Source: Gelidibacter salicanalis (GTDB lineage Bacteria; Bacteroidota; Bacteroidia; Flavobacteriales; Flavobacteriaceae). Taken from it: a stretch of DNA of 64,000 nucleotides. Made by a program: the position numbers and the translations under genes. Below the pieces are notes generated by a model that did no database searches, was not told the origin of the DNA, and worked only from the letters and a program-made list of their open reading frames with translations. This document shows, in pieces, positions 19,709-23,810 of this stretch (position 1 is its first letter; each line of letters begins with the position of its first letter). The stretch is taken from positions 1-64,000 of the forward strand of contig NZ_VORX01000006.1 of assembly GCF_007997285.1 (NCBI RefSeq), in the 5' to 3' direction.

Positions 19709-19795
19709 GTTTATCTTTGTTTTCTGTCCATCGGAATAATATCTATAGACACTAGTATTAATTAAAATAAGATTCCCACTGTTGTGGGAAATAAC

Positions 19796-20821
19796 ATGAA
19801 CGACAACCTCAATCCATCCAACGACAATTTTTCTCCTGAAGAATTTGATGTCGAGAAAAAATTAAGACCTTTATCCTTTGATGATTTCTCTGGTCAGGAT
19901 CAGGTGTTGGAAAATTTAAAAATATTTGTAGAGGCGGCAAATCAACGAAACGAAGCTTTAGACCATACCTTATTTCACGGCCCTCCTGGACTCGGTAAGA
20001 CAACCTTGGCCCACATCTTGGCAAGTGAGTTGGGTGCTAATATAAAGGTGACCTCTGGTCCTGTTTTAGACAAACCTGGAGATCTTGCCGGACTGTTGAC
20101 CAATCTTGATGAACGCGACGTATTGTTTATTGATGAAATCCATCGGTTGAGCCCCATAGTGGAAGAATATTTGTATTCCGCCATGGAAGACTATAAAATT
20201 GACATTATGATTGAGTCAGGGCCTAATGCCCGGACGGTGCAAATCAACTTAAATCCGTTTACATTGATTGGCGCTACCACGAGGTCAGGCTTACTTACCT
20301 CCCCAATGCGCGCACGGTTTGGAATCCAGAGCAGATTGCAATATTATGACACAGAATTGCTCACCACTATCACACAACGGAGTGCATCTATTTTAAATGT
20401 TCCCATTTCAATGGAAGCGGCGGTTGAAATAGCTGGTAGGAGTAGAGGTACCCCGCGTATTTCGAATGCCCTGCTACGACGCGTGCGCGATTTCGCTCAA
20501 ATCAAAGGCAATGGGAGCATTGATATCACGATAGCTAAATTCGCCCTTAAAGCACTCAATGTAGATGCTCACGGTCTTGATGAAATGGACAACAAAATAT
20601 TGATGACCATTATCGATAAGTTCAAGGGCGGTCCAGTAGGAATCACCACCTTGGCTACCGCGGTGAGTGAAAGTGCGGAAACCATAGAAGAAGTTTATGA
20701 ACCATTCTTAATTCAGCAAGGCTTTATCATGCGCACCCCTAGAGGTAGGGAAGTCACGGATTTGGCCTATAAACATTTGGGAAGAGTTAAGAGTAATATT
20801 CAAGGCGGTCTCTTCAATTAG
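19796..20821 (+). CDS. ruvB: Holliday junction branch migration ATPase RuvB
   Basis: AAA+ motor that drives branch migration with RuvA, followed by RuvC resolution. From the ATG at 19796 it has 341 residues: Walker [10 protein letters not shown] near 62-70, Walker B LFIDEIHR near 110-117, sensor 1 GATTRSG near 159, arginine finger region PMRARFG near 169-175, and a C-terminal winged helix (about 260-335). A GTG at 19784 would add four residues, but RuvB proteins of this group start MNxNL, which fits the ATG. ruvA lies 7.5 kb away beside sprA, so the two are not in one operon. Confidence 0.97.
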
Positions 20822-20903: not shown

Positions 20904-22238
20904 ATGCCAAGCAACAATGACATCCCTACTGTTCCTTTAATTGACTTTCTTAAGCATTCACTTGATATTCTTAAAAACCCTTTGCCATTTCATCACGCCA
21001 ACTTCACGGCAAAAGGCGATACCTTTAAATTAAAAGTCGGATTTACCAATGAAGTAGTCTTTTCACGAGACGCTGCGTTTGCCGAATATGTCCTGCAAAA
21101 AAATCAAAAAAACTATAAGAAGTCTAAAATTCAAACGGTAGACTTGGTCAAGTATGTGGGCCGAGGCTTGCTTACGGCTGAAGGTGAGCTGTGGAAAAAA
21201 CAACGCCAATTAATTCAACCTGCCTTTCATAAGTCGCATCTGTCAAATTTAATGAGTAAAGTGTTAGCGGCCATCCAATCCGAATATCAGCGTATCCAGC
21301 CGGGCAAAACTATGGATGCCTTCCCGGTGCTTAATGATTTGGCTTTTCAAACGGTGGTAAAATCCTTATTCAGCAGTGCTGCAAGTACAGAAGACATCAA
21401 CCGCTTACAGTTTATCACAGAAGCAGCCCAAAGAATGTTGGTAAGAGAATTGCGTCAACCCTATTTAGGATGGTGGTTTAAGGCTAGCGGCACTATAGAA
21501 AAGCATTTGGAACTCACCAGAGAAGCCCGTCAAATACTCAAAACTATTGTGAACACCAGACGCAATGCCTCAGAACGCCATGACGATTTATTAGACATGC
21601 TCTTGGAAGCGCGTTATGAAGATGGCAATTTTATGGACGAAGAACAATTGATAGATGAAATCTTGATTTTGTTTACGGCAGGTCATGAAACTACCTCCAA
21701 TGCACTCACGTTTACTTTTCAACTCTTAGCGCAACACCCAGAGTGGCAAGAAAAGATTTATAGAGAAAGTTTGGCAACACCATCAGATTCTGCTGATATC
21801 ATGCAAAGGGTAATGGCCTCCAAAATTTGCCAACAGGTTATTGAAGAAGCAATGCGTTTATACCCACCGGTGTATTTTATTGATCGGGTGAATATAGAAG
21901 AAGACGTATTTAATAATTTGCTGTTCAAAAAAGAATCGAATCTGTTATTTTCGATCTATGAAATCCACCGTCATCCAGATTTATGGAAAACTCCTGACCG
22001 CTTTATGCCAGAGCGTTTTAGCGAGGGAAGTCGTCAATTTTCTTCCCAGTACTTTCCATTCGGAGCAGGCCCAAGAAAATGTATCGGTAACAATTTCGCC
22101 ATGTCTGAAATGATTATCGCGGTAACAGAATTGATTAAAAACTATAAAATTCACCCAGAATTTGAGACTATTGAAATCACCCCTCTAATATCCTTAAAGC
22201 CTAAAAATGCGTTAATGCGATTTGAAAGGCGTGTTTAA
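20904..22238 (+). CDS. Cytochrome P450
   Basis: A 444-residue soluble heme monooxygenase. It has the I-helix oxygen-activation motif AGHETTS near 259-265, the K-helix ExxR (EAMR near 316), the PERF segment, and the heme-ligand loop FGAGPRKCIG with the cysteine thiolate at about 393. The pattern (AGHETTS, PERFSEG, FPFGAGPRKCIG) resembles bacterial P450s related to fatty-acid or xenobiotic hydroxylases, but the substrate cannot be read from sequence. No ferredoxin or reductase gene lies nearby, so redox partners must be elsewhere. It is 82 bp downstream of ruvB and followed by a repeat cluster. Confidence 0.95.
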   Translation: MPSNNDIPTVPLIDFLKHSLDILKNPLPFHHANFTAKGDTFKLKVGFTNEVVFSRDAAFAEYVLQKNQKNYKKSKIQTVDLVKYVGRGLLTAEGELWKKQRQLIQPAFHKSHLSNLMSKVLAAIQSEYQRIQPGKTMDAFPVLNDLAFQTVVKSLFSSAASTEDINRLQFITEAAQRMLVRELRQPYLGWWFKASGTIEKHLELTREARQILKTIVNTRRNASERHDDLLDMLLEARYEDGNFMDEEQLIDEILILFTAGHETTSNALTFTFQLLAQHPEWQEKIYRESLATPSDSADIMQRVMASKICQQVIEEAMRLYPPVYFIDRVNIEEDVFNNLLFKKESNLLFSIYEIHRHPDLWKTPDRFMPERFSEGSRQFSSQYFPFGAGPRKCIGNNFAMSEMIIAVTELIKNYKIHPEFETIEITPLISLKPKNALMRFERRV

Positions 22239-22248
22239 GGGTGAGGTT

Positions 22249-22271
22249 GTCAAGCTGAGCGCAGTCGAAGC
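22249..22271 (+). repeat. 23-bp interspersed repeat, copy A
   Basis: Contains the core gctgagcgcagtcgaagc. Differs from copy B by one base (a for g at the fifth position). Direct orientation, upstream of the GIY-YIG gene. Confidence 0.8.
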
Positions 22272-22303
22272 TTTAGATGAAAAACAGCGTTAACAAACGA
22301 ACT

Positions 22304-22326
22304 GTCAGGCTGAGCGCAGTCGAAGC
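22304..22326 (+). repeat. 23-bp interspersed repeat, copy B
   Basis: Reference copy: gtcag followed by gctgagcgcagtcgaagc. Same orientation as copy A, 55 bp further on and 52 bp before the GIY-YIG start. Confidence 0.8.
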
Positions 22327-22377
22327 CCTATTTAACTCAGAAATTAATAATAGTGATCAAAACCAAATCAAAACGAA

Positions 22378-22701
22378 ATGTGCCAGTATTACGTTTATAT
22401 TTTAAAATGTGCTGACGATTCCTATTACACCAGAATCACAAACGATGTTGCACGTAGATTTGAAGAGCATCAACTAGGAAAACATAAAGATTGTTACACG
22501 TTTAAGAAACGACCAGTCAAAATGGAATTTTATCAAGAGTTTAATGATGTGTTGCAAGCTATTTTTTATGAAAAGAAATTAAAAGGGTGGTCAAGGGCTA
22601 AAAAGAAGGCCTTAATTGAGGGGGATTTTGATAGATTGCAAATATTAGCGGAATGTCGGAATGCGACGCATTATAAATATGGGCCTGATAATGGAAAGTA
22701 A
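22378..22701 (+). CDS. GIY-YIG nuclease family protein (UPF0213-like), possibly inactive
   Basis: A 107-residue single-domain protein. It opens with YYVYILKCADDSYYTR (residues 4-19), matching the small UhbA/UPF0213-like GIY-YIG family, and continues with RRFEEHQLGKH, a FYEKKLKGWSR segment with the expected glutamate (about 64), and a C-terminal tail. The second half-motif normally reads Y-x-G; here it is YTR, so the conserved glycine is arginine and nuclease activity is doubtful. The gene is bracketed by two copies of a 23-bp repeat on each side in opposite orientation (22249-22326 and 22704-22809), as if it were the cargo of a small mobile unit. Activity and role are unknown. Confidence 0.88.
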   Translation: MCQYYVYILKCADDSYYTRITNDVARRFEEHQLGKHKDCYTFKKRPVKMEFYQEFNDVLQAIFYEKKLKGWSRAKKKALIEGDFDRLQILAECRNATHYKYGPDNGK

Positions 22702-22703
22702 GG

Positions 22704-22726
22704 GCTTCGACTGCGCTCAGCCTGAG
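22704..22726 (-). repeat. 23-bp interspersed repeat, copy C (inverted)
   Basis: Reverse complement of copy B except for the final base. Begins 2 bp after the GIY-YIG stop codon. Confidence 0.8.
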
Positions 22727-22786
22727 AGACGAGCACAGAGTTTAACGTGATAGGCGAGTACATCGCACTTTATGAGTTTCTTATGG

Positions 22787-22809
22787 GCTTCGACTACGCT
22801 CAGCCTGAC
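22787..22809 (-). repeat. 23-bp interspersed repeat, copy D (inverted)
   Basis: Reverse complement of copy B with one internal mismatch (cgactacgct instead of cgactgcgct). 83 bp after copy C and 74 bp before queG. Confidence 0.8.
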
Positions 22810-22883
22810 AAAAGTTTAACAACGTGCAGCCAGACGAATATTTAGATTGCCATCAGGCAGATAGTAAATTAACAAATTAAAGA

Positions 22884-23810
22884 GTGAATCATAAATCCAA
22901 ATACAGCCAACTCATAAAATCAGAAGCTAAACGCCTCGGATTTTTGTCTTGTGGCATTAGCAGAGCTCAATTTTTGGAGGAAGAAGCACCACGATTGGAG
23001 CGCTACCTCAAAAACAATATGCACGGGGAGATGCGCTATATGGAAAATCATTTTGACAAACGTTTGGACCCCACAAAACTGGTGGAGGATTCTAAATCGG
23101 TTATTTCCTTACTATTAAATTATTATCCCGAAGAACACCAAATAGACCACACCTATAAAATTTCTAAATACGCCTACGGGACAGATTATCATTTTGTCAT
23201 TAAAGACAAACTTAAATCACTTCTAAATTTCATTCAAGAGGAAATCGGCGAGGTGCACGGTCGCGCCTTTACGGATTCTGCTCCTGTATTAGACAAAGCA
23301 TGGGCGGCCAAATCTGGTTTAGGTTGGGTGGGAAAACATACCCTGCTGCTAACCCAACAAGCCGGATCATTTCATTTTGTGGCAGAATTAATTATTGATC
23401 TCGAATTGGAATATGATCTACCCACAACAGACCATTGTGGTACCTGTACCAAATGTATTGACGCCTGCCCCACCCAAGCCATTACGGAACCTTATGTGGT
23501 AGATGGCAGTAAGTGTATTTCATATTTTACCATCGAATTAAAAGATAAAATCCCTAGCGAATTTAAAGGCAAATTTGACGATTGGATGTTCGGTTGTGAC
23601 ATCTGCCAAGACGTCTGTCCTTGGAATCGTTTTTCGAAAGCGCATAGTGAACCCTTATTTAATCCGCATCCTGATTTATTATCCATGACCAAAAAAGATT
23701 GGGAAGATATTACTGAAGATGTGTTTAAGGATCTCTTTACAAAATCGCCAGTAAAACGCACAAAATTCGAAGGTTTAAAGCGTAATATTAATTTTATAAA
23801 AGAAGGTTAA
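22884..23810 (+). CDS. queG: Epoxyqueuosine reductase QueG
   Basis: A 308-residue cytoplasmic iron-sulfur and cobalamin enzyme that carries out the last step of queuosine synthesis, reducing epoxyqueuosine in tRNA. An N-terminal reductase domain (about 1-170, with [20 protein letters not shown]) precedes two 4Fe-4S motifs, [13 protein letters not shown] (about 183-195) and [11 protein letters not shown] (about 237-247). Start is GTG at 22884; no upstream ATG fits. It converges with the next gene, the two stop codons being 1 bp apart with no terminator hairpin. Confidence 0.96.

Follow-up and report, generated by a model that had tools for sequence, protein, structure and literature searches.

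The small GIY-YIG nuclease gene between the cytochrome P450 and queG genes of Gelidibacter salicanalis, together with the four short repeats that frame it, probably forms a single mobile unit, an analogue of the RAYT 'REPtron' that is built on an unrelated nuclease and disperses REPs of its own. Stem-loop repeats, commonly with a (C/T)GTCA tag, flank both sides of small GIY-YIG genes in most of the cases that we tested, often in inverted orientation. The loci of these units are unrelated to each other; at an orthologous junction, gene and repeats are either both there or both missing; and nuclease and repeat type are inherited together. The enzyme behind the spread of a large and long-unexplained class of bacterial repeats has been missing, and the small GIY-YIG nuclease is a strong candidate for it.

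The unit lies in a window of 64,000 nucleotides (the whole stretch of DNA analysed), in which ruvB, the P450 gene and queG are consecutive on one strand, with a P450-queG spacer of 645 bp (Table 1). The 107-aa ORF in this spacer contains a GIY-YIG domain (Pfam PF01541, E 3e-15) and no other Pfam domain, and no HUH tyrosine transposase is encoded in the unit. The AlphaFold model of the protein (pLDDT 90.5) gave its best Foldseek matches with the UPF0213 proteins 1ZG2 and 1YWL (E <= 0.001), followed by weaker matches with the branched-DNA nuclease Slx1 (E 0.01-0.15), so that, on the fold search, the nuclease appears to belong to the UPF0213/COG2827/prokaryotic Slx1-like group. Six positions are conserved in 117 repeat-labelled proteins (Y7 99%, Y17 98%, G19 99%, R27 99%, H31 99%, E65 100%), and the window nuclease keeps Y7, Y17, R27, H31 and E65. 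The glycine of its YIG motif is replaced by arginine (G19R), and this particular copy may be inactive or decayed, judging from the substitution. The Gelidibacter sediminis copy retains the glycine. Rfam gave no match in the region, and NCBIfam and PADLOC gave none with the nuclease protein, which therefore receives no defence label.

Table 1. Features of the P450-queG locus in the window
Feature	Position	Strand	Basis
ruvB	19784-20821	same as P450 and queG	Pfam
Cytochrome P450, left neighbour	20904..22238	+	Pfam
P450-queG intervening segment without counterpart in four congeneric genomes	22239..22883	.	genome comparison
Unit proper (four repeats and GIY-YIG gene)	22248-22809		
REP copy A, GTCA tag and hairpin (TGTCAAGCTGAGCGCAGTCGAAGC), facing the gene	22248..22271	+	core match, arm comparison
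REP copy B (TGTCAGGCTGAGCGCAGTCGAAGCCC)	22303..22328	+	core match, arm comparison
Small GIY-YIG nuclease, 107 aa (PF01541)	22378..22701	+	ORF, Pfam, predicted fold
REP copy C, inverted, tag CTCA	22702..22725	-	core match, arm comparison
REP copy D, inverted, tag GTCA	22785..22809	-	core match, arm comparison
queG (epoxyqueuosine reductase), right neighbour	22884..23810	+	Pfam

A sequence-only reading of this DNA had described two repeats upstream of the gene and two downstream in the opposite orientation. Their places and orientations hold, and the inverted arms around the gene (28 nt) are 96% complementary. Copies B and C lie close to the gene, with the core of B ending 51 bp before the start codon and the core of C starting 2 bp after the stop codon. 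The window contains three exact core matches (22254-22271 and 22309-22326 on the plus strand, 22704-22721 on the minus strand), a fourth with one mismatch (22787-22804, minus strand) and a fifth with three mismatches (230-247), that is, five matches versus a shuffle mean of 0.02. A genome-wide search found the core, TGAGCGNAGTCGAA, to be dispersed, with 36 exact copies in 3.78 Mb versus 0 for the reversed control. GTCA makes up the four bases preceding the stem in 31 of these 36 copies; within the unit, it is the tag of every copy except C. Over 18 distinct copies, 50 of 54 cells of the outer stem pair (shuffle mean 29.3; 0 of 2000 shuffles reached 50), and the three base pairs around the core covary between loci (GGC/GCC, CAC/GTG, CCC/GGG, GGT/ACC, CTC/GAG, GTT/AAC). 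An unpaired tag followed by an imperfect stem-loop is the anatomy of a REP. The stem of the window repeat is short and imperfect, and when free, DNA of this type folds only weakly (-2.1 kcal/mol, against -2.8 to -8.9 for other types).

The match at 230-247 and loci L056 and L059 share a longer motif, roughly CTAGGGCGAGAAGTTTATGCTGAGCG.AG.CGAAGT, which may mark another repeat family akin to the core. In-frame copies inside protein genes of the window's genome (G000) encode VTLSAVE (L058, G000:C21:182439; L052, G000:C8:260228). One of these, a solitary REP within the reading frame of a 3-hydroxyacyl-CoA dehydrogenase gene, occurs in G000, G064 and G013 and is missing from six congeners; we do not count it as a clean insertion, because the spot is a variable linker in which no clean insertion point is readable.

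That gene and repeats form one unit inserted between P450 and queG, as had been proposed, agrees with the comparison of nine congeneric genomes. Both are present in four of them (G000, G013, G064 and G065; in G064 the nuclease gene lacks its 5' end and the protein its N-terminus) and jointly absent from another four (G061, G062, G063 and G066), where 5-8 nt separate the end of the P450 match from the queG match. The ninth, G060, has no gene at this junction, and its queG match stops after 21 residues. Likewise, neither gene nor repeats were found in the P450-queG gap of two other genera (23 and 8 nt). G065 nests among the empty genomes (P450 clade 100/100, ruvB clade 96/99), and the unit therefore either arrived twice at one junction or was cleanly lost more than once. 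Nuclease and P450 diverge alike between G065 and the window (74 versus 76%). Signs of flanking target duplications are only suggestive: by eye, AGAA stands on either side of the unit in G065, and G013 shows an imperfect match of ~11 bp, but no convincing, repeated duplication was found at the P450-queG units. A further junction, between a MaoC/aldehyde-dehydrogenase and an enoyl-CoA hydratase gene and upstream of the latter, is occupied by different units (identity judged by eye). Here, the nuclease of G000 belongs to one clade and comes with one type of hairpin, whereas that of G013, G064, G065 and G060 belongs to another clade and comes with other hairpins, so that, by eye, gene and repeats differ together.

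We surveyed the flanks of similar genes across phyla, at 80 loci chosen by similarity to the nuclease alone. After dropping 19 long-frame loci and, from the 61 short-ORF loci, five near contig ends, 56 small GIY-YIG genes were testable. Repeats were present on both sides within 150 bp at 42 of them (14 failed); of the other genes at these loci, 1 of 80 passed, and 0 of 24 when small genes are taken. Considering intergenic positions only, 35-36% were repeated within 300 bp of the gene versus 4% at 1-3 kb. Two-sided repeats were found in Bacteroidota (17/21), Pseudomonadota (11/15), Vulcanimicrobiota (5/7), Chloroflexota (4/5) and Ignavibacteriota (2/4), and at three of four further single loci. 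In some Pseudomonadota, the GIY-YIG match lies inside a longer open frame of 289-636 codons (L098, L112, L116, L120, L123, L126, L129, L137, L139 and L141); these may be fusions, or simply long frames in GC-rich DNA. Two-sided repeats within 300 bp occurred at 7 of the 19 long-frame loci versus 50 of the 61 short-frame loci.

Within the family (60 genomes), 101 of the 105 small matches among those listed were tested, and 69 had two-sided repeats, tandem copies included, while 32 failed; leaving out tandem loci, the count among the matches listed was 52 of 80. Controls passed once in 20 UvrC genes and once in 19 other ORFs, the latter being one of eight small ones. We also examined a set of 20 proteobacterial genomes chosen by nuclease similarity (16 alpha-, 2 beta- and 2 gammaproteobacterial), in which 23 of 39 small GIY-YIG genes passed the two-sided test (22 of 35 among the alphaproteobacterial ones) and 0 of 2 control genes did; the 39 were taken from 55 matches (35 alpha, 4 gamma examined), and at least six are shared with the multi-phylum survey. 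The sequence-only reading had asked whether repeat and GIY-YIG gene co-occur more than chance allows. Small GIY-YIG genes carry a strong excess of repeats, and relatives differ in whether they have the arrangement, so the outcome that would have refuted its cassette model did not arise.

All six small GIY-YIG genes of the window's genome are adjoined by palindromic repeats, of five families by eye. Two of them (C8:153015 and C21:188169) fail a strict 13-mer test, and their inverted hairpin pairs still exceed the 95th percentile of cross pairs. The same percentile was exceeded by inverted flank similarity at 40 of 86 small GIY-YIG genes versus 0 of 20 UvrC genes; direct similarity was above threshold more often (53 of 86), probably because repeat arrays build up. 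GTCA occurs at the outer end in only 40 of 84 inverted pairs; it is the commonest tetramer there, and it is absent from the twelve commonest tetramers at the inner end. These 84 pairs come from 168 genes and do not represent an unbiased share, because the 168 include 16 loci of the 20-genome set that were picked by eye for visible inverted pairs. The count of repeats per genome also went with the presence of the gene (p 9e-6). We rejected it as main evidence: part of it is circular, since copies at the gene itself are included and the eight 'with' genomes were hand-listed, and G066, with 31 repeat cores of which none is near any listed GIY-YIG match, contradicts a strict dependence. At least one core occurs in 17 of the 52 family genomes not listed as holding such a nuclease gene.

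We mapped repeat types onto a tree of 119 family proteins, built from 100 columns and with weak support for many of its forks. The regexes that define the repeat classes were written once the flanks had been seen but before the tree had. Removal of 27 rows labelled 'none' and 25 labelled 'tRNA', of which at least two look miscalled (G013:C1:1363319 and G062:C26:361905), left 67 labelled rows with seven types, over which the type changes 10 times. Free shuffling of labels gave at least 35 changes and shuffling within genomes at least 21, and the genome of origin changes 57 times on the tree. A check that made no use of regexes, limited to pairs from different genomes with no common neighbouring protein, counted flanks as alike at a score over 14, which held for 28 of 32 close, 85 of 155 middling and 49 of 1726 most distant protein pairs. 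Loci of the same type lie mostly in different neighbourhoods (T1 13/16, T2 6/7, T4 11/12, T5 8/11), with higher neighbour sharing in T3 (18/130 pairs) and in the tRNA set (40/292). Related nucleases with the window's repeat type are found at other loci in other genera; for instance, a Winogradskyella relative (69% identical) shares the repeat core and is located between type I restriction and methylase genes. More than one repeat type is present in 17 genomes, and up to eight small GIY-YIG genes, with several types, are listed in a single one (G044). The agreement between nuclease clades and repeat types strengthens the analogy with RAYTs that had been drawn earlier from the sequence.

As in the RAYT/TnpA-REP 'REPtron', the GIY-YIG gene is framed by tagged hairpins of its own family, each enzyme lineage has its own REPs, a genome may hold several types, and solitary copies are scattered between genes; unlike there, where an HUH tyrosine transposase goes with a GTAG tag, a GIY-YIG nuclease goes here with a (C/T)GTCA tag. 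Di Nocera et al. (2013, PMC3733652) sorted REPs into GTAG-tagged, RAYT-associated families and CGTC-tagged families. According to the accessible part of that paper, the latter 'apparently lack a dedicated transposase', are reported from five bacterial phyla and often have TGTC as the tag, stems of 8-9 bp starting with AT, a loop of 4-5 and mostly CCA tails. Hairpins with an unpaired CGTCA or TGTCA tag occur at many family and alphaproteobacterial loci. Some alphaproteobacterial units look as if framed by the CGTC-tagged REPs described in those sections: in the 20-genome set, flanks such as CGTCATTCCCGCGCAGGCGGGAATCCAG, found by eye on both sides of units whose paralogs carry different repeats, share the tag, the AT-led stem and the CCA tail. 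Conversely, the imperfect-stem types of flavobacteria misfit the families as set out there. The window protein resembles UPF0213/COG2827/prokaryotic Slx1-like proteins (1ZG2, 1YWL; PMC1564403) in fold, size and conserved residues; unlike it, these are known, in the accessible part of that source, as structures and predicted repair nucleases with no link to repeats. The accessible portion of the open-licence PMC literature yielded no statement linking small GIY-YIG nucleases with REPs, and one may be in print elsewhere.

The excess of repeats at these genes and the non-fixed arrangement support the mobility model of the sequence-only reading, and we infer that the nuclease catalyses the movement of the repeats. 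The enzyme would recognise a hairpin of its own family, extruded or single-stranded, and nick it at the GTCA tag; the released or copied hairpin would then be joined elsewhere through host replication and repair. Two inverted hairpins would carry the gene between them, whereas single hairpins would travel alone, and solitary REPs would be the non-autonomous products. GIY-YIG enzymes hydrolyse DNA and, to our knowledge, none rejoins it, so that a host ligation or repair step would be needed; this chemistry is the weakest step of the mechanism. On balance, it also seems likely that small GIY-YIG nucleases are dedicated mobilisers of CGTC/TGTC-tagged REPs throughout Bacteria, a second, non-HUH kind from which many intergenic palindromes would derive, in which case a nuclease of ~100 aa with two inverted hairpins would perhaps be the smallest autonomous mobile DNA unit. 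With a nuclease inside the REPs, co-inherited with their type and polymorphic at orthologous sites, the spread of CGTC-REPs becomes directly testable. If this reading is correct, small UvrC/Slx1-like proteins, until now regarded as repair nucleases without a known substrate, gain a role, and partnerships of REP and enzyme arose at least twice, on unrelated nucleases.

GIY-YIG homing endonucleases are selfish GIY-YIG nuclease genes, and by a similar process the gene could have invaded pre-existing REPs as targets and been copied in by break repair, with the REPs spreading otherwise. This would fit the trpB-trpA junction, where the gene is found in two of nine congeners (G000 and G064; gene calls from the match list) and, by eye, the gap of the other seven (that of G060 read in part) holds palindromes without a gene. 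It would also fit separate GIY-YIG clades that sit in tRNA genes with a palindrome at the anticodon arm, as if hairpins were the targets. However, the short empty P450-queG sites are free of REPs in the genus and in the two other genera, and repeat type follows the nuclease clade, a pattern not necessarily expected if many nucleases simply targeted common repeats. Unlike in homing endonuclease genes, a GIY-YIG domain is the only one found in the window ORF, and the unit ends in hairpin repeats. We thus consider a homing-like origin unlikely. Rather less probable still is a role in host maintenance, in which a structure-specific repair enzyme resident in the genome would trim the hairpins of its own family and co-evolve with them, in the manner of SbcCD or Slx1 and with no mobilisation. 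Slx1 is the nearest fold after the UPF0213 proteins, and three small COG2827 proteins of Caulobacter have been proposed as back-up excision-repair nucleases (accessible part of PMC1839093), but a host enzyme of this kind is hard to reconcile with genes that lie at different loci and are missing from close relatives, with as many listed copies and repeat types as in G044, and with repeats placed at the gene itself, on both sides.

Mobilisation of the REPs by a tyrosine (HUH) transposase, with the GIY-YIG gene as a passenger, appears very improbable. RAYTs are linked to other REPs (PMC6006769, accessible part), and the window's genome has one Y1_Tnp (RAYT-like) match, L062 (G000:C15:324496-324834). 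That gene, however, lies away from the unit, and the palindrome around it is another one, CCTCACAGG..CCTGTGAGG; according to the accessible part of PMC3733652, no gene for a tyrosine transposase was found with CGTC repeats at its flanks; and a passenger would not track repeat type across the 17 multi-type genomes. We give the least credence of all to chance or bias, by which small genes in long intergenic gaps would merely collect repeats. REPs are indeed intergenic, repeats stand on at least one side of 5 of 20 UvrC genes and 6 of 19 other ORFs in the family survey, and one of the eight small control ORFs has them on both. Against this, two-sided repeats are rare among the controls of both main surveys (1 of 80 other genes and 0 of 24 small ones across phyla; 1 of 20 UvrC genes and 1 of 19 other ORFs in the family), and the excess near the gene persists when intergenic positions alone are counted. 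The reading that we favour remains that of a mobile GIY-YIG/REP unit.

Several minor observations concern other arrangements of these genes and palindromes. The palindrome that frames the RAYT-like gene also occurs in the trpB-trpA gap of G062 and G065. In the window's genome, locus L042 (G000:C15:33500-37000) is a tandem array of ~181-bp repeats that encloses two GIY-YIG genes with identical protein, 1,036 bp apart, flanked by TCGAGTG..TATCGAGA hairpins; a similar gene pair is present in G013. In genomes of the family and the genus, other GIY-YIG clades lie inside or beside tRNA genes (L195, L230, L289, L278, L274, L280, L292, L198, L221 and L190), with a 5' tRNA part, an anticodon-arm region replaced or interrupted by a palindrome, and then the GIY-YIG ORF. 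This arrangement suggests a branch of such elements that targets tRNAs. An intact tRNA is found nearby at 17 of 19 scanned loci, including Leu, Pro, Ala, Arg and Val tRNAs, and the loci are sometimes tandem, with three copies in G026.
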